A stretch of 64,000 nt of DNA from Ascidia mentula (taxonomy: Eukaryota; Chordata; Ascidiacea; Phlebobranchia; Ascidiidae): the NCBI GenBank assembly GCA_947561715.1, contig OX387197.1:14877001-14941000 (forward strand). Reading direction: 5' to 3'. Shown here one piece after another: positions 1 through 63,813 of the stretch. Position 1 is the first letter of the stretch. Each line of letters opens with the position of its first letter. The position numbers were made by a program, and so were the translations under genes. The notes under the pieces were generated by a model, which searched no databases, was not told the origin of the DNA, and saw nothing but the letters and a program-made list of their open reading frames with translations.

Positions 1-1260
1 AGGAAGTTTACTTGCGCTCGCTGTTGACGAATCTACGGACATCAACGACTCTGCGCAACTGCTAGTCTTCGTTCGTTCTCTATCTACCAGATTTGAGTTG
101 TGTGAGGATCTTCTTTCAATGGAAACACTGGCTACCCGCACCCGTGATGAAGACATATTTGATGCAGTCAAAAATGCCTGCATTCGGTCCGGATTAGATT
201 TAAAAAGTCTTTGTGGCATTTGCACGGATGGCGCACCTGCCATGACGGGTAAGCAACAAGGATTTGTGACAAGATTGTCAGATTACGTATGTAAGGAGCA
301 TGAAAATAACGAGCTCGTTAATCTTCACTGTATTATCCACCAGGAAGCATTGTGTGCCAAATCCGTTGCTTTAAGTAACGTTCTGAAAGACGTAAATGCT
401 CTTCATCACAGGCAATTTCAAGAAATTTTAAGCTCAAGTGATACGTCAGTAGAGGATGTGCTTTATCACTCCTCCGTCCGTTGGTTGTCTCAGGGAGAGA
501 CGTCTTGCCGTGTTCTGCTTTTGCGAAAAGAAATAACAGAATATTATGGCTTTAAAAACAAGTATTGCCCCCTGATCAACGTTGACTTCCTCACATCTCT
601 TGCTTTTCTGGTGGCTCATGTCAACTATCTGAACCAAAGTTTGCAAGGAAAAACAACAACAGATTGTCTCCTGTACAAAAAAGTGACAAATGTCTACTCT
701 TTAAAAGTCATCTAAGGCAACGCAATTTCTTTCATTTTCCGCAAGTGACAGCGCTGATTGACAGCGCTGATTGACAGCAAAGAAATAAATGTTGGGAATA
801 TTCCAATCGATATGTTTTCCGGCGTTTTCGACGGGCTGTTGGAGGAATTCGCTAACCGTTTTAAAGATTTTGAGAAAATTTCGCAAACAATCAGAATCGT
901 TGCTTATCCACATCTGGTGGAAACCGAAATTGCACCGTTACGTCTTCAAATGGAGCTGGTTGAGTTGAAAAATAACGAGCAGCTAGTCAAGAAATTTAAA
1001 GACGAAGAAGATTTGCTGGATACCTGGAAAAGTGCAGTTGAATATCCTAAACTGCAAGAATTGGCCAGAAAACTCTTGTTCTTTTTGGAAGCACTTACGT
1101 GTGCGAAGCAGCGTTTTCAAAAATGAAGTATTTGAACAACAAGTACCGAACACGTATGTTGGACAGCAATTTGGAGTCGGGTCTTCGTCTGATGATATCA
1201 AACGAGCAACCTAATTTCGAAAGTTTGTCTATGGGCGTGCAAGAACAAGGCAGCCATTAA
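1..1260 (+). pseudogene. hAT transposase, ZBED5/GTF2IRD2-like type, 5' part outside window
   Basis: This is the C-terminal two thirds of a hAT-superfamily transposase, which would cut and paste its own element in the nucleus. The reading starts before the window with a DESTD-like segment. It continues through CTDGAPAM and a LHCIIHQEAL block (about 220-370), both typical of the ZBED5/GTF2IRD2 group of domesticated or active hAT proteins. The frame breaks near 715-760, where a short TTGACAGCGCTGA motif is repeated, and shifts again near 1,080. The final segment (about 1,078-1,260) carries the hAT dimerisation helix with a CEAAFSKMKYL motif and ends at TAA 1,258-1,260. With at least two frameshifts the copy is dead. 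A related, separate copy lies at 32.5-34.1 kb. Confidence 0.85.
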
Positions 1261-1469
1261 ATACTTCAATACTCGTTACATTGTATTTTCGTAATTTGTA
1301 AATAATAAATAGTGCACATTTTTCAGGTATGGAATCATTTTCATTCCTTTCTTATATTGCTCACGTCAACTTGTCGAAATTATCAGGGGTATATCGTTGG
1401 AAAAGCAGTATATTCAACGGCGGCCGTTAGGACACAGTAGTGCGTGCGTTGCGGCCGGCAGTAGTAAAA

Positions 1470-1485
1470 AGGTTGTGCACCCCTG
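1470..1485 (+). repeat. 3' terminal inverted repeat of the hAT element
   Basis: AGGTTGTGCACCCCTG is the reverse complement of the CAGGGGTGCACAACCT ends common in hAT elements. It lies about 210 bp after the transposase stop. The matching 5' end is outside the window, so the 8-bp target duplication cannot be checked. Confidence 0.6.
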
Positions 1486-1586
1486 CATTAAAGCATATTG
1501 TCAATGCTTTCTTCAGCTGGTATATCCACCACCAGTACTTGCTGATCCGCAGCGACTTTAATAATTGCTTAAAGGCTGGTTTACAC

Positions 1587-3624
1587 CATAGAATACTAAA
1601 ACATGGAATGGAAACTCCGCTGAAAATGCGCCGTCACGCATGAGTAACACTTTACGCAAAATGAAAAATGCATTGGGTTAAATGCGATTTTGGTGTTTTT
1701 TAGAGGGCTTAAAAACCCATTAAATAGAACAAAATTTAAAACTTTTTTAAAGAAACAAGAAGTTTGGTCCCTCGTCTTTTGAAATATGTACATGATTTTG
1801 AATAAATCGTGTCGCATCATTTTTTACGGCGGTTTGCTGTCTACTGCCTTTAAGTCAAAATATGAACAAATAATTGCGCGCTTTTGCTGTTCGCAAGCAA
1901 TGGGAGGCCAAATCGAGTAATATTATCAACCACTATGCTTCTTATGTCAAATTAAATACTTTGCTTGTTATGTTTTTTTTAGGAGAGTATCTTTGCACAC
2001 AGTAATACGGTGGTTTGGGAATATTTATTTTGCAAAAACATGTCATTTGACATAAATAGTTGACAAACGATAGTATGAATGTTTTTTTCTGCGATTTCTG
2101 TATCTTGATCAAGATGGAGATGAAGATATTATGATGAACTAAACTATTAAAATCAGTTGATATCAGGAAACACCATGTTCATACTGCTTGAGCGCAAATG
2201 TTGCCAGTAAAGTGCACAACAAAAACAACATTTTTGTGCATAACATGGGTTTGAAAAAGTTAAGCCTTGACAAAATATATGTTGATTGGTTGCAAATACT
2301 CAAGGGCAGTGGGAATACTTCCAATATAAACCAACTATAATTTGTATAGAAGTGTTTGCATACGAGCAAATTCTGAAAACTTTCATCTTTTACTTCAACG
2401 TGACATGTTTCTTCAGAATATACTCATTTTAATACATATCCATATCAAATCCTGTTGTGTTTTACTTGAAACTGATCTGCGAAGAAAAAAAATGACTAGT
2501 GAAAAAGGTATTTTTAATATATTAAGGTCCGATTCGAAAAAAAAACAGAAGGCAATTATGTTTGGTTGAACAAAATATTACATATTCTCAACTGTGTCAT
2601 GAGCATTCAATCAAGTGTTTTGAGTAAAAAAATATACTTCTGTTATGTGTGCAATAGTTTGACAAAATAATTTCCATCAAATTCAAATTGTTTTCTTCTC
2701 AGATATTGGACAAATCAACACTCAAAGTCCAACTTTCAGACAAAAAGCCAATATACAACCAAATATTTACAATGAAATCAAATAGAAAACTCAGTGATGT
2801 GTGGGAAAAATGTATAAAGTAGATTACTAGGACAATAAAAGCAGGTTCATTGCTATTCACAAAGCATAGGCTCATATGTGGCATGAATTGCTCAAAACCA
2901 ATGGAATATAAAAAAAGACACAAGAATTCATTTGATTCTGTCAATATTTATTAGATAATTACCAACATTTATTTATCATTTCATATATAATTTCATAAAA
3001 GATGAAAAAAGGCCAGATTTAAGTATGGTTAACCAGTTTAAAGACAATTTTTGAAAAAAAAACAGCAAAAATTGGCCCTATCTTATCTCGCTTACAATGA
3101 CTACAATCTGCCAAAGACATTTTGGGCCAAAAACTACTTCATGTAGTACTGCACTATCTATCCAACATATGTCTTTACAAAAAGAGGAGTTATGAAATAT
3201 TTTGATACATACCCAATGATGACTGCAAAAATGTGACCTCTGGGTCGGCCTGTTTTGTTCATATGTTAGGTTTCTGAATCCCATGATTGCTCTTCAGGCA
3301 GATATGCAAATCTAAAATATTACGTCATCACTTGAATGACATAATACATGTCTTACGTCATCTTTGAGGTCACCGCGATGACGTATTAACAATTTTTCAG
3401 TCAGTTCGGTGACTTGTGACACACGGGTAAAAAGTGTATTATAGCGCGTCATAATTAAAATCATCCACATATTTTAAAAGATTAAAGATAGAACTACTTG
3501 AATTTCTTTTAAATGAATTCCTGTGGTTACACTAACTTATTTAACCCAATGCATTTTTCATTTTGCGTAAAGTGTTACTCATGCGTGACGAAAAGAGTTT
3601 CCATTCCATGTTTTAGTATTCTAT
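1587..3624. mobile_element. 2.0-kb non-autonomous element with long TIRs and 8-bp target duplication
   Basis: The ends are inverted repeats of about 90-98 bp starting CATAGAATACTAAAAC (1,587) and finishing GTATTCTAT (3,624). The right arm lacks a few bases near CGCTGAAAATG. The octamer GTTTACAC flanks both sides (1,579-1,586 and 3,625-3,632), and removing the insert rejoins the Harbinger subterminal sequence. I find no recognisable protein in the AT-rich interior (about 1,860-3,520). A one-armed relative lies at 27,388-27,645. An 8-bp duplication fits hAT, P or similar superfamilies; the family is unassigned. Confidence 0.78.
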
Positions 3625-3959
3625 GTTTACACTGTGCGCAGTCGTGCGACGCGAAACAAAGCGGTGCGAACTTTACACTTCGATCACTTCACGCATCTCT
3701 GCCCCCACTCGCCGCCAAGTTGACGTATTCGTTAGCAACACCAACTAACTGAAAGACAATTGCAGGACTTTTTATTATTTTGAAACTGAACTAGCTAAAA
3801 ACCATGAAGCTTGTACTTATGAAAAAGCCTACTATCCAGAGGTTTCGGGGCAATGGAAGGTCAAATTATAAATTAAAGCTATTGTATGTATTAATAAGAT
3901 TCAAACACAGTTAAGCAATCAGAAAATCGAGAAGTCATTGGGTTCATCCTATTCTTCAA

Positions 3960-4975
3960 TCACGCATCGAAAATGGTAAAGGTTCTTTAAAATTAGTTGG
4001 ATTTTGGCAAAACAATACTTTTTTGTCAGGGGAATATCATAAGTTAATGAGGGAAATGAGAATATTGAGGTTTGATGAGCTATTATCCAAAGTTGCTCCA
4101 AAATATCCAAGATGGACACGCAGTTAAGAAGATCAATACCTGCTGGGAAAAATCTGGCCATTACTTTGCCGTAAAAGGCTTAACTTTTGTTTTTGCACCC
4201 TTTATTCAAAATGTTCTATTAAAGATTTCTTGCAACTGGAGATACCTGTTCCTGACGAAAAATCGATGAGAAAAAATTGCAAGAGAGTACCAATCATTTT
4301 GGCAATTTCCCAATTGTGTTGGAAGCATTGATGGAAAGCATGTCTTAATTCAGGCACCTTTTAAGTCGGAATCGCTCTATTTTAATTACAAAAAAGTTAG
4401 TATTGTTTTGTTAGCAGTTGTGGATGCCCTGTATAACTTTGTTGTTGTGGATATTGATTCTTATGGAAGTATTTTATCAAACTTCAGTTTTGGTAGTAGG
4501 CTGAAGGATAACTTGCTTTCCCTTCCTGTGTTAAACTCATTACCTGGAACAGATATACAAGTTCCTTTTGTGTTTGTAGGTGACGAGGCTTTTCCTTTAA
4601 GAACAAACCCAATGCGACCTTATCCAGGAACTTAAGCTAAGGGTGTTTAAGTATAGATTGTCCCGTGCCCGAAGAATAGTGGAAAATGCTTTAAGCCAGA
4701 AACAGTGGATTTAGTTGTGAAAGCTTGCACTGTTCTGCATAACTTTTTAAGACATAAAGTATCCCTTCATTATGTGGAGCCAAATTCAGCTGACTTTGAA
4801 GACACAAGGGGAGTTGTTCATGACGGCCAATGGAGAAGTCAAAATGCTTCAGCCTCTTTTGTCCATTGCAGAGAACAGGTAGACGATCTACGGTCGAGGC
4901 ATCTCAAGTTCGAGACACCTTTGCAAACTATTTCCTTAGTGTGGATGGCTCCGTTCCATGGCAACTAGACAGACT
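3960..4975 (+). pseudogene. Harbinger (DDE_Tnp_4) transposase, degenerate
   Basis: This is a PIF/Harbinger transposase relic. In order it shows an N-terminal segment with FDELLSKVAPK (about 4,070), a probable short intron (about 4,171-4,222, GT-AG), a FLATGD-like block, then GSIDGKH (about 4,328), VVDALYNF, VGDEAFPL (about 4,580) and a VVKACTVLHNFL tail (about 4,715). GSIDGKH and GDEAFPL carry the first two catalytic acidic residues of DDE_Tnp_4. Several frameshifts and a deletion between the FLATGD block and GSIDGKH destroy it. The last part ends in a frame-shifted segment resembling the usual Harbinger C-terminus near 4,970. Confidence 0.85.
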
Positions 4976-54439: not shown

Positions 54440-54522
54440 TGTAACGTTTTATGTTATGATGTAATGTTCACATTTGGGTAACTTTCCATTAGGTAATGGA
54501 GAGTGACTTGCAATATGGTGTA

Positions 54523-55100
54523 TGGTGGACCATCGCTATCACACACATTTTAACAAAAAAATATCAAATGCGTATTTTGTTTTGCATTATGACTTTATTT
54601 TTAATTACGTTTTTAAAAGCGATAATAAATTGAAATGGAAAACGCATTTTTAAAATTAACTTCGTTTCAAAACAGATTTCAAACTTGACTTTGAGATGTA
54701 TTTTGAATACAACTTTCAAATAAATTTTTAATATCACTTTCAATTTTATTTTGGAAATCAATTTTACATTTCATTTTCAATTTTATTCTGAAAATAGTTT
54801 TAAAATCTATTTCGAAAACCATTTTCATTTTGAATTTCATTTTCATTTGAAATATGCGATTTTTTAAATCCCCACGTAGCCCAGCGCTATCACATTTAAT
54901 AGAAATCATACAACGTTCTAAACAAACTTCGTAATTAGTGCTGCAATAAAGTAAAGTGTTGTTTGGTTGCAGACGATGTATTTATTTGTTCCACGTCGTT
55001 CTGTTGTACTTGTTTGTGCCATGCGAGGCTGAATTAAAACTAGACAACAATCTTCTTTATAATTCCAAAAAGTTGCGCCAATTTTTGGGAACGAGATTGC
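54523..55100 (+). repeat. Left terminal inverted repeat
   Basis: About 578 bp, about 93 percent alike by eye to the right TIR. From 54,600 to 54,860 it is a run of degenerate 24-bp units (TTTCAAATTTATTTT-like). A second, internal copy of the terminal word, CAGCGCTATCACA, lies at about 54,882. The inner 190 bp is non-repetitive and ends near GGGAACGAGATTGC. Confidence 0.85.
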
Positions 55101-55359
55101 ATTGACAGCCTGCGATGCCAACAATAGGTTTTTGGGGGACTGGAGGATATAATGGTCCAACGTTTATCTTTAACACCGTGTGGAAGAATAAAAACAATTA
55201 AACTAATGCAAGTTTAATGCACCGCTGCGCTCGGATCTTGAATTTGATTTTAAGTTTCTTGGTCTTATTTTGGCATTTTTTGCAAATTTTCTTATGATTT
55301 CGTATTTTTGCAGCTTTGTAGAATTGATGGTCTAGTCACATCCAGGTGCAAAAGTTATA

Positions 55360-56560
55360 ATGTGGCAACAGAGTAGTGATTTAAAAGCTATGTTACAAAA
55401 TTGTGTTGCAAAAAACATGAAGCGAAAAGAAATTTTGCAGTTGGTGAAGAAAAGGTTTTCTGAATATTCTTGGAGTGTTGCAACTCTAGACCGAAGACTT
55501 CGCTATTTTGATATTACATACATAAGATACGACACTTCTTTGAATGAAGTTTGTGCTGCTGTTGATAAAGAGTTACAGGGACCTGGTAAACTGTTGGGTT
55601 ATCGAGCAATGAATCAAAAGCTACGGTGTAAACATAAAATATTTGTGCCAAGGCATTTAGTTCAGAAAGTGTTGCAAGAAAAAGACCCTGAGGGTGTTGC
55701 TAGTCGAAATGTAAGACAGAAAATTAAAAAACTTAAACAACTGTTTGCTTGTAGTGGCCCTCTTCAACTCAAAAAAAGTATCATTGGATGGGCACGACAA
55801 GTTGTGTGGATATCAAAACTACACTTTTCCGCTGGGCATATATGGTGCAATAGATATATTTTCACGTAAAGTGTTTTTTCTCTTTGTTACTCACTCAAAC
55901 TCCAACCCTCAGATTATCGGAAAGAAATATTTGGAGCACATATATGAAACTCAAACAATGGCAAAGTTTTTAAGACTGGATAGAGGAACTGAAACAGGAA
56001 AAATGGCAACAATACATACATATCTCAGGAACAAACATGGAGATTTAGAAGATCCGACAGAGAGTGTTATATATGGTCCTTCTAACACAAATAAAATTGA
56101 GCGCTGGTGGAGGGAGCTGCATGAAAGATTAGAGCTTTTTTTCAAAGCACAACTTAGATCATTAATAACAAATGGAAAGTATGATCCACATTGTCTAACT
56201 GACCGTCAGCTACTGTTTTATATTTACAAACCTATTGTACAACGTGAATGTGATATTTTTGTGGCAAATTGGAACAGTCATCGCATACGCAATCAAAACA
56301 ATATTCTTTTACCTACTGGTGTACCTGAACATATTTTTGAATGTCCTGAATTTTATGGCACAACTTGTAAAGGTCTTACAGTTAATGACTGTGACCTTAA
56401 AGAAGTTGCTGAAATATCTGGTGTTTTACATGCCCAGGAGGAATGGTTAAGCACCAGTATAAAAGATAAATGTTTACAGCTTGTTCCCAATCCTGAATTA
56501 ATTTCTTGTGGAGATGCTGACAGCATCTATTGTTTTTTACGGCAAAATTTTTCTGCATAA
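55360..56560 (+). CDS. Integrase-type DDE transposase of the alpha-kinase element (one frameshift)
   Basis: It would cut and rejoin the element in the nucleus. The N-terminus is a helix-turn-helix (RKEILQLVKKRF, WSVATLDRRLRYF), then GPGKLLGYRAMNQKLR. The catalytic core follows: SLDGHDKLCGYQN (Asp at about 55,787), IYGAIDIFSRKV, LRLDRGTETGK (Asp at about 55,979), PSNTNKIERWW (Glu at about 56,099), so the D, D, E triad is present. A C-terminal helical part ends at TAA 56,560. This matches the rve-like integrase-domain transposases seen in cnidarians and fish. The only lesion is one extra A in a seven-A run near 55,772-55,778, which shifts the frame; it may be a mutation or a sequencing error. 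A polyadenylation signal AATAAA lies at 56,569. Confidence 0.8.
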
Positions 56561-56654
56561 CTGGAAACAATAAAAACAAATGTATCATGTTTGCTTTTGT
56601 AATAGCAGAATTGAAACAAATTACAGAGTCACATAAAAGTAACAAAAACATGCT

Positions 56655-57809
56655 TTAGGTATTATTTAGATTTAGTTGAGGAAGACACATCATAACACAA
56701 AATTTGTTGCAAATGTGACTCTCAATAAATGTATCAATAGCAACACTTGACAAATTGCCTGCACAAAAAAACACTTCTGCATTTTCATCCAAGAGATGTG
56801 TTGTAGCAATTTCGGGATCAAATAATGTGTGGTTCACTCCTTGAATGTCGAGCAACATCATTTTCTCTTCAGAAAATATGTAACTAAAGTGCACCAGACA
56901 TTCACATTTTTGCTGTAGAACATTGTTGGTTAATTTACAGCATGAACCATCATTGTTTACATATTTCACGAATTCACCAGAATAATAGTTTTCCACAGTA
57001 GCAGGGCTTTCATTGTATTTGCAAAAAAATACATCATCATACTTCAAATGTTCTCCAAATTCAATGGGCACTTTTTCAGAGAACTTTTCTGTCAAACTTT
57101 TTGCCACTGTGTGCATTTGAACTTGCTTTCTGCAGTGGTCTTCCATAGAAATGTGTAAATCTTCCTGGATGGTGGAAGCAGCACTTTCATTGTACAGTTT
57201 TACTACAAGTTTATCTTTTGGGGGAACCTGATTTGCCATAAATGCCTTGCGGAAGGCACCACTAGCAAAGCTGGTGCATGATACTTGCAAAAGTAAGTTG
57301 GCTTTACTTTTCCATGCACAATCATCTAGAACAAACTGCTCTAAGTCCACAGAAACAGACCTCACTTCATTTTTTATTAACTTTCCAGCCTTGAAAAGGG
57401 TGCTTATGGAGATAGACTTTTGTACAGGCTGAGGTGGTTTCTCCTCAACAAGGTTTTTCCTGTCACGCCCTACTGGCTCCATAAATCTAACGTAGTAAAA
57501 CTTTTTGCCCTGTATTTGTTCATATCTGGAACAAGAAGGTCCTCTGTCCGATGCAAGTACATCACAAGAGCCAGGCGGTGCTTGGTAATAAGACTCACAA
57601 GCTAATTTTATGTTTTCTAAATTTACTTCTTCGTAAGAGAAGGGAACAAAATCCCTTGTGTCCAAAGGTTCAAATTTTTTTATTCTTCCTGATGGTGTCG
57701 AAGATAACCGTTGGACCATTATATCCTCTGGAACAGCCTTAGTTTGTTTTCTGCGTTTCATTCCGACCCTTTTTTCGAAATCTTCCCACGTTTCCTTGAC
57801 TCGTTTCAT
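56655..57809 (-). CDS. Alpha-kinase (MHCK/eEF2K family) carried by the transposon, 384 aa
   Basis: An atypical serine/threonine kinase domain in an unbroken single exon. The N-terminal 150 residues are basic then mixed (DFVPFSYEEVNLENIKLA, CDVLASDRGPSC), unassigned. The kinase starts near residue 170: SGAFRKAF (184-190), VVKLYNE with the ATP-binding Lys at 204, VPIEFGEHLKY, YYSGEFVKYVNNDG (275-288), LVHFSYIFSEEKMMLLDIQGV with Asp 321, and DPEI with Asp 331. His 327, His 365, Cys 367 and Cys 371 form the H...HxCxxxC zinc site that holds alpha-kinases together. All key residues are present, so it is predicted to be active. Its start is 53 bp from the right TIR. Possible roles are modifying the transposase, host silencing proteins or the cell cycle; none is shown by the sequence. 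Confidence 0.88.
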   Translation of the reverse strand: MKRVKETWEDFEKRVGMKRRKQTKAVPEDIMVQRLSSTPSGRIKKFEPLDTRDFVPFSYEEVNLENIKLACESYYQAPPGSCDVLASDRGPSCSRYEQIQGKKFYYVRFMEPVGRDRKNLVEEKPPQPVQKSISISTLFKAGKLIKNEVRSVSVDLEQFVLDDCAWKSKANLLLQVSCTSFASGAFRKAFMANQVPPKDKLVVKLYNESAASTIQEDLHISMEDHCRKQVQMHTVAKSLTEKFSEKVPIEFGEHLKYDDVFFCKYNESPATVENYYSGEFVKYVNNDGSCCKLTNNVLQQKCECLVHFSYIFSEEKMMLLDIQGVNHTLFDPEIATTHLLDENAEVFFCAGNLSSVAIDTFIESHICNKFCVMMCLPQLNLNNT

Positions 57810-57861
57810 CTCGAACAGGGTTTACGTTTACGTCTTATGCAACTGTAGTATGAATATACTA

Positions 57862-58433
57862 CGCAATCTCGTTCCCGAAAACTGACGCAACTTTTTGGAA
57901 TTATAAAGAAGATTGTTGTCTAGTTTTAATTCAGCCTCGCATGGCACAAACAAGTACAACAGAACGACGTGGAACAAATAAATACATCGTCTGCAACCAA
58001 ACAACACTTTACTTTATTGCAGCACTAATTACGAAGTTTGTTTAGAACGTTGTATGATTTCTATTAAATTTGATAGCGCTGGGCCAATGGCTATTGTATG
58101 TGTATGGGATTGATAGCGCTATTTCAAATGAAAATGGTTTTCGAAATAGATTTTAAAACTATTTTCAGAATAAAATTGAAAATGAAATGTAAAATTGATT
58201 TCCAAAATAAAATTGAAAGTGATATTAAAAATTTATTTGAAAGTTCTATTCAAAATACATCTCAAAGTCAAGTTTGAAATCTGTTTTAAAACGAAGTTAA
58301 TTTTAAAAATGCGTTTTCCATTTCAATTTATTATCGCTTTTAAAAATGTAATTAAAAATAAAGTCATAATGCAAAACAAAATACGCATTTGATATTTTTT
58401 TGTTAAAATGTGTGTGATAGCGATGGGCCACCA
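57862..58433 (-). repeat. Right terminal inverted repeat
   Basis: Inverted partner of 54,523-55,100. It carries 58 extra bases around 58,080-58,125, including GATAGCGCTGGGCCAATGG and a second GATAGCGCT, both close to the outer tip GATAGCGATGGGCCACCA. This suggests that an older, shorter end lies inside the present TIR. Confidence 0.85.
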
Positions 58434-59010
58434 TAATGGTGCTACCAGGAAATAACTCTCGTTCCTGGAACGAAACAGGAGAAATTCTCGTAACACGTAA
58501 TTAGGTATCGCGGTTCGCACGCAAGCCGCATAACTGATTGCCTATATAATTTGTGGGTTCTGCGGTTGAATTCATTCTACACGTTGGTACGCCTTTAGCG
58601 TAGAATCACCGTTTGTTTATTCTACTCTGGGGTTGAGTTGTATTTCTGAACATATATCTTTCGTCTTGGTGAATAAAACAAACTAACACAAGTTTGGTTA
58701 GTTACGAAGAGGAGTCCGGAGTCAGGGAAACGCATATCGCAGTTCAAACAAACAAACAATACACATTCCTACACTTGTTATATTATAGCACATCCAGCAG
58801 CAAATGAAAACAGTTAACACAAGTGCATTCTTCTTTCAAGCAAGTGTCAGCATTCCTGAAATGCATTTATTTCCTTCAGGACTCCAAAATGCAACTTAGG
58901 TCCTCAAAACGAATGTTGCTTTTTTGTATCTTGATGCTTGTACAATTCATTTAACACTTGTGCAGTATTTATCAAAATTAACTCGAGTAAGCACATTTAC
59001 ACTTGTTTCA

Positions 59011-60076: not shown

Positions 60077-62305
60077 TTGCCAATGAAACGTTTGACGTGC
60101 TTGACTAAGGCTTTCGATGAGCGGCGTGGCGGAAAAGTTTCGGTTCATGATGTTTCGCCAACATCACCTTTTCTACTAGGAAGACCACATGTTAATGCTG
60201 CATCTATAAATGTTCGTGCTGATCACGAATCACCACTTGTTGCATCAAACTCGTTGGGTCCACTGTTAGAATTGGACGGGGCGCATAAAGATTTGCCGCC
60301 GTCTCGGAGGGAAACTGGTATTTTGTCTGCAACCGATACTGATATTCCAGGCAAAGGGAGAAACGCTGACGTGGAATATGGGACTCTTGATCAAAGCCCT
60401 ATGAACCAACCTCTTGGACCTGCAGTATCAGGTACTAGACCGACTTCAGATATGGTGTTTTTTGCTGAAATGATCAAACAAAGTTTTAATTTGCCACGCT
60501 TGACCATAGAGAAGTTTGATGGTGACCCGTACAACTATCACAAATTCCTGAATGACTTTAATCGTCAGATCAATCAAACGAACCTTAGTAACTCTGAAAA
60601 ACTTAGTTACCTTTGTAAGTTTTGCACTGGACGTGCAAGGTCTAACATTGTGGAATGCAAAAGTTTGCCATCTGATATGGGCTATTCTGAAGCATTGAAA
60701 ATACTACACCATCGTCATGGACGAATTGAATTGGTGGTTCGTGCACATATGGACAAACTGATTGGAAGGAACCAGCTGCGAGAAAATGACTTTCGAGGTT
60801 TGCAAATGTTTCGTGCGCAGGCAGCCGAAAGTTACAAATTGTTTGGAAGATGGAGTTGTCGCTACACGCTGGACTTGCCACAGAATTTGGAGGCTGTGGC
60901 TCAGAGAATGCCACCGGATTATATTGCACAGTTCATTACAAAGTGTTCGAAACTTAGACTCAAAGGAATATCTCCAACGTTCCAGACTTTGCTTAATTTC
61001 TTGGAAGTTAAGTGTGAAGACATTCTGTCGCCGATGATGAAATACCTTGTGCGGGACACTCAAAAGACAAAGGTTAGGAACCAGTTTGGTAAACAATCTC
61101 GAAGTGTGTTTAATACGGTTGTAGCGAACACGGAGTCTGATGGACATCATTGTAAAGGGTTGGTGGAATGTCGAGATTGCGGTGGACGACATAGCTTGAA
61201 GGATTGCAAGTCATTTATAGGACGGTCCCTCAAGGAGAAATACCAGTTGGCCCGTCGTTGCAGACTGTGCTTTAAGTGCCTTGGGGATGGACACTACATT
61301 GATGCATGTCCATCTGAAGAGACATGCCAAGTAAAAGGTTGTAGCAAGTCGCATCATACACTGCTACATTGGAGCAAGATTAACAATGCATTGGGACAGT
61401 CACAGAAGGGGCGAAGCTCCATTGACCCAGATACGGTAAATGGGGTCGGTGTTGTTGCTTCAACGTCTACTGCTCGATCATTTAATGTGCGATTGAAAGT
61501 TGTGCCCGTCAAGGTACGTACTGTTACATCGGATAAATGTGTACTTACATATGCATTTTTGGATAATGGTGCGAATACGACCCTGTGCTCTTCTCGCCTA
61601 ATGGATAAGCTTGGGCTTAGTGGCAGGTTGAATCCTTTGTCTATTGAAACTATAGCAGGGACGCATAAGATTGATAGTTGTTGTGTGACTCTTTCTGTTC
61701 ATGGTGTGGGACAACACGCTGATGTCGCCTATGACCTAACTGATGTTAGGGTTGTTCCGAAATTACCCAGCTTGGCTGGGAGCATTCCTGTTGGAGAAGA
61801 CAGTTTAAGATACCCACATATTAGCCATTTAGACTTACCTGTGGTTCGAGATGGTGGGGTTGATTTATTGCTGGCAGCTGATCTGCCTGAAGTTCATGAA
61901 TATACAGAGATTATCCATGGAGGTCATGGAGAACCTGATGCATTACATACACCACTGGGATGGTGTCTGTTTGGTACAGAACGCACCAGGGGAAAGCCTC
62001 AAGCATCAGTAAATTTTGTACAGACTAGCTGTAATCAGTGTGGTCAACTTGATGAAATATTTGGACGAGACTTCATGGATCAGGGAGGTCATAAGCCCAC
62101 ATACTCATTGGAGGACAAGCGGGCTCTTGCTGTGATGGAAAGCACGGCCACTTTGGTGGATGGACATTACCAAATGAGCCTGCCCTGGAAGTCTGATAAC
62201 CTAAAGCTGCCGTACAATAGAAATATGGCAGAGAGGAGACTAAAGAACCTTATGCGTCGCTTACAGAATGACGAGAAGCTTTGTGAGCAATATAAATTAC
62301 ATTGA
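60077..62305 (+). CDS. BEL/Pao gag-protease (DUF1759, zinc knuckles, aspartic protease)
   Basis: 742 codons without a break. DUF1759 begins near residue 145 (EKFDGDPYNYHKFLNDF, LSYLCKFCTGRARS). Two cysteine-rich zinc segments follow (CRDCGGRHSLKDC near 364; CRLCFKCLGDGHYIDAC near 394), which bind RNA. The protease active site (AFLDNGANTTLCSS, near 493) has DNG where most BEL proteases have D-S/D-G. The RT N-terminal linker (LPYNRNMAERRLKNLM) closes the frame. The frame ends at TGA near the start of RT; coding similarity carries on in another frame (IENGFARRIP). Confidence 0.85.
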   Translation: MPMKRLTCLTKAFDERRGGKVSVHDVSPTSPFLLGRPHVNAASINVRADHESPLVASNSLGPLLELDGAHKDLPPSRRETGILSATDTDIPGKGRNADVEYGTLDQSPMNQPLGPAVSGTRPTSDMVFFAEMIKQSFNLPRLTIEKFDGDPYNYHKFLNDFNRQINQTNLSNSEKLSYLCKFCTGRARSNIVECKSLPSDMGYSEALKILHHRHGRIELVVRAHMDKLIGRNQLRENDFRGLQMFRAQAAESYKLFGRWSCRYTLDLPQNLEAVAQRMPPDYIAQFITKCSKLRLKGISPTFQTLLNFLEVKCEDILSPMMKYLVRDTQKTKVRNQFGKQSRSVFNTVVANTESDGHHCKGLVECRDCGGRHSLKDCKSFIGRSLKEKYQLARRCRLCFKCLGDGHYIDACPSEETCQVKGCSKSHHTLLHWSKINNALGQSQKGRSSIDPDTVNGVGVVASTSTARSFNVRLKVVPVKVRTVTSDKCVLTYAFLDNGANTTLCSSRLMDKLGLSGRLNPLSIETIAGTHKIDSCCVTLSVHGVGQHADVAYDLTDVRVVPKLPSLAGSIPVGEDSLRYPHISHLDLPVVRDGGVDLLLAADLPEVHEYTEIIHGGHGEPDALHTPLGWCLFGTERTRGKPQASVNFVQTSCNQCGQLDEIFGRDFMDQGGHKPTYSLEDKRALAVMESTATLVDGHYQMSLPWKSDNLKLPYNRNMAERRLKNLMRRLQNDEKLCEQYKLH

Positions 62306-63813
62306 AAACGGATTTGCTCGTCGGATTCCGGATGAATGTCTGAAGCGTACTGATAAAACGTGGTATAGAGACCAACTCTCTTGTTGGTGTGCTTTTACGC
62401 TTTCGCCAAGACCCTGTGGCAATTATAGCGGATATTAAAGCCATGTTTCATCAGGTTAGAGTCCAGCCTGTGGATTGTGACTCTTTGCGGTTTCTTTGGT
62501 GGCCTGCAGGTGATTTCACAAAGCCACCAGTTGATTATCAAATGATGGTCCACCTGTTTGGGGCAACAAGTTCTCCCAGCTGTGCAAGTTTTGCATTGAA
62601 AAAGACCGTGTCGGATAACAGCCATCTTGTTGGTGAAGATGCTGCAAAGAGTGTTTCAAACAATTTTTATGTGGATGATTGGCTGGTGTCAGTCGCTTCT
62701 ACGAAGCAAGCAATTACCTTGGTAAGGGACGTTACCACAATATTGGATATGGAGGGTTTTCATTTGACTAAATTTGTGAGCAATTCTTCAGGGGTTCTTG
62801 AGTCACTTCCTGGCTCAAACCACAATATTTCCTTCCTTGATTTAGACTTTGAACACCAGTTAGTTGGTCGTACACTGGGTGTCCGATGGGACATAGTTAA
62901 GGATTCTTTTGGGTTTAGAGTAAACATATCACCCAAGCCATATACCCGTAGGGGGGTTTTGTCAATGATGAGTCAAGTGTACGACCCCTTAGGTTTCATT
63001 CAGCCTTTTCTTCTGCCCATGCGGTGCCTTCTGCAGGGTCTTTGTAACTTAAGTTTAGGATGGGATGACCCCCTTCCTTCAGATGCATTAGTGCACTGGG
63101 AAGAGTGGCTTAGACAATTGCCTCTGTTGGAGCACCTGCACATTCCTCGTTGTTTAAGGCCACCTGTAGGGTTTACTTCTGTACAATTACATTGCTTTGG
63201 GGATGCTAGTAATTTAGGATATGGTGCAGTGTGCTACCTTCGATTTGTTGACTCGGTTGGTCATGTCAGTATTTCATTAGTTTGCGGCAAAAGCCGAGTC
63301 ACTCCCTTAAAGCCCGTTACCGTTCCGCGGCTTGAGTTGGTAGCCGCTGTTATTACGGCGAAGCTCGGTGCTATGGTGGTGCGCGAGTTGGATTACGTCA
63401 TCGACAACGTGATGTTTTGGACCGATTCGTTGACCGTGTTGCACTATATCCACAACACTTCAACAAGATTTCAGACATTTGTCGCCAACCGTCTTGCTGT
63501 GATTCATGAGTTGACGAAGCCTTCACAGTGGCATCACGTTGGTACCAAGGATAACCCGGCGGATATTGCTTCGCGTGGTGTAATGCCGAAAGAATACAGT
63601 AATGTACGGACGTGGTTTGAAGGACCGGAGTTCTTGCAGAAGGAGGCGAAATTTTGGCCAAGCCGGCCGAATTTGGAAATTGGTTTATTTCAGGACGATT
63701 TGGAGATAAAGAGGCAGCGGCGTGTGTATGTCACGATTGCGTCTCTCGATGTGCTGCATCTTTTGCTGCTTCGCTATTCGTGTTTCAAAAGGCTACAGAG
63801 GGCGGTCGCGTAG
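62306..63813 (+). CDS. BEL/Pao reverse transcriptase and RNase H
   Basis: Open from about 62,389 to TAG 63,813. RT palm blocks include IIADIKAMFHQVRV (first catalytic Asp), FGATSSPSCASFAL and NNFYVDDWL (second catalytic Asp pair near 62,670), then the BEL-specific TRRGVLSMMSQVYDPLG. RNase H shows HCFGDASNLGYGAV, PRLELVAAV, FWTDSLTVLHYI and KDNPADIASRG, giving all four acidic residues. Between 62,365 and 62,380 about 45 residues of the RT fingers are deleted, which should inactivate it. The deletion is the main lesion of this element. Confidence 0.85.

Follow-up and report, generated by a model that had tools for sequence, protein, structure and literature searches.

An IS3EU-type DNA transposon of the ascidian Ascidia mentula with an alpha-kinase as its second gene

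In a 64,000-nucleotide stretch of the Ascidia mentula genome (contig OX387197.1, positions 14,877,001 to 14,941,000; hereafter the window) we found a DNA transposon that encodes both a transposase and an alpha-kinase, read towards each other between long terminal inverted repeats (TIRs). The best overall explanation, to which we give a probability of about 0.8, is a two-gene, IS3EU-type cut-and-paste transposon whose kinase is co-inherited with the transposase and kept under constraint. An initial annotation, made from the letters of the window, had proposed that a DNA transposon has the kinase as its own second gene, and this was borne out by the genome-wide pairing of the two genes and by bounded copies at other sites. 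The mitochondrial COX1 of the genome agrees with an ascidian host: it contains 16 AGA/AGG codons, many of them where other animals have glycine, and it translates well with table 13, the ascidian mitochondrial code, in which these codons stand for Gly.

The element spans positions 54521-58435 of the window (3,915 bp, from TATGGTGG to CCACCATA, with TATGG..CCATA ends), as delimited by its inverted arms and by a perfect 6-bp target site duplication (TSD), ATGGTG, which comparison of the flanks located at 54515-54520 and 58436-58441. It is a real element, for which a chance origin is far excluded. A TIR-bounded element of about 3.9 kb had already been described at 54523..58433, and its true ends lie two bases farther out on each side. 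Comparison of the arms, each about 575 nt, gave a left TIR of 580 nt (54521-55100, plus strand) and a right TIR of 573 nt (57863-58435, minus strand), which are 94.1% identical over 580 positions of a gapped alignment and 98% complementary in each of two ungapped blocks (54521-54835/58121-58435 and 54879-55100/57863-58084); a left-right difference of 6.2% is inflated by gaps, and the 94.1% and 98% values are to be preferred. Between the arms lie the transposase gene (55360-56560, plus strand) and the alpha-kinase gene (56655-57809, minus strand), which are convergent, with stop codons 94 nt apart.

Five copies of this family (family A) have resolved ends in the genome, each with its own 6-bp TSD (ATGGTG, CATTAT, CACCAG, GACCTC and CATAAC), and the TATGG..CCATA ends and a 6-bp TSD are found in all five as well as in a copy of a related subfamily (L055). 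The A copies diverge by 0.6-1.3%. In one of them (C52) a deletion equivalent to window positions 56474-57803 takes the end of the transposase and nearly the whole kinase, and its own TSD is kept. The kinase frame is open (388 codons) in four of the five copies and the transposase is unbroken in two, a difference that would be expected if domesticated host kinase genes lay by chance beside transposons. However, four separate sites have the kinase between TIRs with differing TSDs, and from end to end these four elements differ by 0.6-1.1% (about 99% identity), which makes such chance neighbourhood very improbable. A copy of subfamily B (L054), whose right end was not located, was excluded from the TSD counts, as were the arms at C69:21370171-21393154, which are not bordered by a matching TSD; the kinase inside the latter (L005) has an open frame of only 327 codons, and a second reading of this locus was disregarded in the frame and substitution counts.

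In addition, we searched the whole genome (195.8 Mb, 79 contigs) with the kinase profile PF02816, taking 5 kb as the limit of proximity. Of the 23 matches, 18 lay within this distance of a related transposase, against about 0.06 expected, 14 of them convergent with it and four in tandem. The figure of 18 overstates the number of independent insertions, since C70:12749965/12758828 and C71:4872295/C69:8694960 score identically and are probably duplicates. At C70:12746560-12762727 (L037, L008, L038) two kinase-transposase pairs with the same scores are mirror images of each other, separated by about 9 kb, which suggests a large inverted duplication or an assembly artefact. The five unpaired matches were two exons of one host gene and three fragments resembling the element kinase (L057, L058, L059). 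The exon-split host gene (C69:5602178-5602884; matches 5602178 and 5602510), which we read from its exon as eEF2K-like and separate from the element kinase, gave no tblastn match to the latter at 1e-4. Convergent genes between matching TIRs at many loci, the support that the initial annotation had hoped for, are thus represented by 14 of the 23 matches and by the four TIR- and TSD-bounded copies that hold both genes; rather than a single-copy host kinase with kinase-free copies elsewhere, the genome contained one bounded copy without the kinase (C52), by deletion.

The association probably extends beyond Ascidia. For the kinase a protein search returned 152 relatives (E≤1e-5), and for the transposase 279, 120 of each being listed; the top match was from Ciona intestinalis for both proteins (60% identity for the kinase, 74% for the transposase). 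Among the matches listed, named kinase relatives came from the tunicates Ciona and Phallusia and from the cnidarians Actinostola and Oculina; named transposase relatives came from Ciona, from Clytia, Exaiptasia, Dendronephthya and Actinostola, again cnidarians, and from the mollusc Patella. When 116 kinase and 115 transposase matches were compared by the size of their source contig, eight pairs were exactly equal; on contigs longer than 2,500 nt (81 x 85 matches compared) there were seven, compared with 0.19 on average when the sizes were shifted. Because equal sizes occur so far above this expectation, kinase and transposase probably share contigs in other assemblies, some of them only 2.8 and 5.4 kb long, although equality of size is an indirect indication. 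Furthermore, the pairwise distances of the two proteins correlate (Mantel r=0.81, p=0.0002, ten pairs). These pairs comprise the seven on equal-size contigs, the pair from a contig of 1,640 nt being left out, and three ascidian subfamilies, the family A entry combining the kinase of the window copy with the transposase of another A copy (L026).

Between these subfamilies, A, B (L054) and C (L055), identity is 47-64% for the kinase and 58-71% for the transposase, and the nonsynonymous divergence of the kinase (dN) is 0.29-0.47 at a synonymous divergence (dS) that is saturated or 1.85, which points to strong amino-acid constraint over that time. Together, these comparisons support joint inheritance of kinase and transposase across deep divergence, with the kinase kept under amino-acid constraint. 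They also bear on the idea that a recently captured host kinase travels as a neutral passenger of a single insertion, in favour of which we found nothing except the low copy number of family A (15 arm matches): the kinase is present in several subfamilies and has relatives in other tunicates and in cnidarians, it co-diverges with the transposase under constraint, and the host gene on C69 is not a tblastn match to it at 1e-4, so that recent capture is refuted as it stands. In L055 kinase and transposase lie in tandem instead of converging, and a perfect 78-nt inverted repeat (2864-2941/3357-3434) lies at the 3' end of the kinase; this copy is probably rearranged internally, with its kinase C-terminus affected. 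In L054 we read a local irregularity in the transposase open reading frame (ORF) near the first Asp. We also looked for a viral or prokaryotic source by scanning contigs of IMG/VR and GTDB with the kinase alignment; of the 122 and 98 pattern stretches that came up, none was confirmed as a relative, and distant ones could remain.

The kinase ORF of the window copy is intact and encodes 384 amino acids. Pfam detects in it the kinase domain alone (Alpha_kinase, residues 182-371; E=5.7e-32, 111.7 bits against a curated cut-off of 21.3), preceded by a conserved N-terminal region at about residues 29-110. Alignment to TRPM7 identified the catalytic and zinc residues as K204, D321 and D331, and H307, H365, C367 and C371. 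The same residues had been listed previously with H327 in place of H307; the fourth zinc ligand, however, is H307, since it precedes D321 by 14 residues, as H1751 precedes D1765 in TRPM7, and since it is invariant, like D321 and D331, in 69 aligned homologues, whereas H327 does not reach even 90% conservation in them. By domain and residues the protein is a member of the alpha-kinase family, and it is predicted to have phosphotransferase activity. The predicted structure of the full protein reaches a predicted local distance difference test score (pLDDT) of 90.5, with the alignments to PDB chains covering the kinase part (at least a fifth of the rows span only 147-383), and the N-terminal piece folded alone, without an alignment, reaches 48, too low for the model to be of use.

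The transposase matches the Pfam family rva_4, 'Integrase core domain' (E=6.1e-18), as expected from its earlier description as an integrase-type DDE transposase, but its frame is broken in the window copy into overlapping ORFs (55360-55869 and 55745-56560). An unbroken frame of 405 codons is present in two other A copies, with 397 amino acids from the ATG in L026. In an alignment of 65 sequences (63 of the 121 collected and two loci), D141 and D205 are invariant and E245 is conserved in at least 90%, from which we infer that they form the catalytic triad. The 6-bp TSD, the TAYGG..CCRTA (TA..TA) termini and the IS3/integrase-type DDE transposase place the element, by the features tested, in IS3EU.

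The arms themselves suggest how the two genes are read and how the long TIRs arose. The kinase ATG lies 53 nt inward of the right arm, which contains a TATAA 96 nt upstream of that ATG, a putative kinase promoter; upstream of the transposase ATG, at a distance of about 300 nt, the arm sequence recurs with its TATAA. Both genes may therefore share one promoter and be read inward from mirrored arms. In addition, positions 55143-55203 (plus strand), upstream of the transposase, are an inverted copy of kinase codons 28-48 (52/61 nt identical), present in four of the five A copies, C52 having no match to the motif used. This remnant beside the transposase was probably left when the kinase-side end served as template for the left arm, at a time when the element already had its kinase, and it probably shows that gene conversion, in the form of arm copying, took part in forming the long TIRs.

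In the mechanism that we propose, the transposase would bind the arms, excise the element and insert it with a 6-bp stagger; the TSDs are observed and the catalysis is predicted. The kinase, which very probably serves the element, would act in trans. Its basic N-terminus (rich in lysine and arginine in most of ten kinases inspected, P0081 being the exception) could direct it to the nucleus, where it might phosphorylate a factor involved in chromatin or transposition and, most plausibly, counter silencing. We place this role first because nuclear entry of a TRPM7 kinase fragment, with phosphorylation of histone H3 at Ser10 and Ser28 as its outcome, has been reported (PMC12699267), and because Kojima interprets a TET/JBP enzyme carried by IS3EU of rust fungi as anti-silencing (PMC12730594); by these analogies a histone or silencing-related substrate is a tentative suggestion. 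A kinase acting instead on host physiology, namely on translation as eEF2K does or on cytoskeleton and cell cycle as MHCK-A does, could create a cell state favourable to the element, but the best sequence match is the TRPM7 kinase (1.4e-15; MHCK-A 9.6e-11, eEF2K 1.6e-7), and this, together with the basic N-terminus, makes an action away from chromatin unlikely. About as probable as a silencing-countering role, and equally tentative, is direct regulation of transposition, in which the kinase would phosphorylate the transposase or its DNA complex and affect activity, nuclear import or copy-number control; the co-divergence of both proteins and the mirrored arms, as presumed promoters, are in its favour, and the kinase-free relatives described below are against it.

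Several observations weigh against a constrained, co-inherited kinase that serves the element by acting on chromatin. The 75 transposase matches of the genome form 48 clusters, of which 18 have a kinase nearby and 30 have none within 5 kb. Among the latter is a second IS3EU-like lineage (about 31% transposase identity) with at least six open 433-amino-acid rva_4 frames, near whose transposases the PF02816 genome scan gave no alpha-kinase match within 5 kb; the kinase is thus not required by all relatives. C52 has its own TSD, and its deletion may postdate insertion; had the deletion come first, the kinase would not be needed in cis. Pairwise counts among close A copies are small (4-9 nonsynonymous, 1-7 synonymous) and alone are no proof of constraint. 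Lastly, histone H3 as a substrate rests on resemblance, and MHCK-A fits the predicted kinase fold as well as TRPM7 does. In view of the kinase-less copy with a TSD and of the kinase-free lineage, a regulatory or anti-defence role is more probable for the kinase than one in the cutting chemistry.

We examined one copy of the second lineage (L060, C1:11375000-11382500), in which a 433-amino-acid transposase (782-2083, plus strand) and a convergent 609-amino-acid protein (2688-4517, minus strand) lie between inverted repetitive blocks, so that here another gene takes the place of the kinase. This protein, whose nearest relative is from Clavelina (56%), is weakly HECT-like (Pfam E 0.094, below the cut-off; E6AP chains 4e-4 over 34 residues; two of 27 relatives HECT-annotated). 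A different second gene in a sister lineage suggests that the second-gene slot may be exchangeable between IS3EU-like lineages. An N-terminal module common to the alpha-kinase and the HECT-like protein was considered and rejected, as their profiles matched with a score of 9.5, whereas the best among 60 controls with shuffled columns reached 15.7. In the neighbourhood of the window element, a BEL/Pao-type retrotransposon (60077-63813) starts about 1.6 kb to its right, with DUF1759, Pao peptidase A17 and reverse transcriptase, the last below the cut-off.

Alpha-kinases are usually studied as host signalling enzymes, and our data indicate that they have a large transposon branch in animals. Relatives annotated as 'myosin heavy chain kinase D-like' in Ciona and 'eukaryotic elongation factor 2 kinase' in Phallusia may be transposon genes. 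Going further, an ancient animal-fungal transposon lineage could carry an alpha-kinase as its standard second gene with a chromatin-acting, anti-silencing function, and the expanded orphan alpha-kinases of many genomes, such as those of rusts, cnidarians and tunicates, would then largely be transposon genes rather than host signalling genes; we consider this conceivable, with the balance tipping against it. As the element is compact, with two genes and recent-looking copies (0.6-1.3% different), and belongs to an animal group that serves as a laboratory system, the substrate of a transposon-borne kinase is directly addressable.

Among known systems, the IS3EU/GingerRoot superfamily shares with the window element the TA..TA termini, the usual 6-bp TSD and an integrase-type transposase, and differs in that the text describing it does not contain the word kinase (PMC10045372). 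In a 2012 meeting report, multi-gene elements of fungi are said to derive from IS3EU and other transposons and to contain captured host proteins, no kinase cargo being named in the portion available (PMC3520738). Styx of Zymoseptoria is likewise a multi-gene element, for which its authors inferred an IS3EU ancestor; it further has two genes that encode DNA-binding motifs and one that encodes DUF3577, and the accessible part of the description places no kinase inside it (PMC10853768). TRPM7, MHCK-A and eEF2K share with the window kinase the alpha-kinase fold, the catalytic Lys and Asp and the zinc site, and differ from it in that it is a stand-alone, transposon-encoded protein of 384 amino acids with its own N-terminal region. 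The initial annotation knew of no transposon family with an alpha-kinase, which was wrong: IS3EU of rust fungi is reported with an alpha-kinase opposite the transposase, a 6-bp TSD, TAYGG..CCRTA ends and TIRs longer than 30 bp, all as in the window element (Kojima 2025, PMC12730594), a likeness drawn from description and not from protein sequence. The fungal TET+ families also have a TET/JBP dioxygenase between both genes, where the window element has only the 94 nt. This was the sole paper found in our literature search, within the text seen of each source, that joins alpha-kinase and IS3EU; we recognised no account of such elements in animals, Repbase, which may hold such entries, not being covered. 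What is new here is the animal distribution, the TSD-verified copies, the kinase-transposase co-divergence and the kinase constraint. The kind is already known from fungi, and the window element is a well-supported animal member of it.

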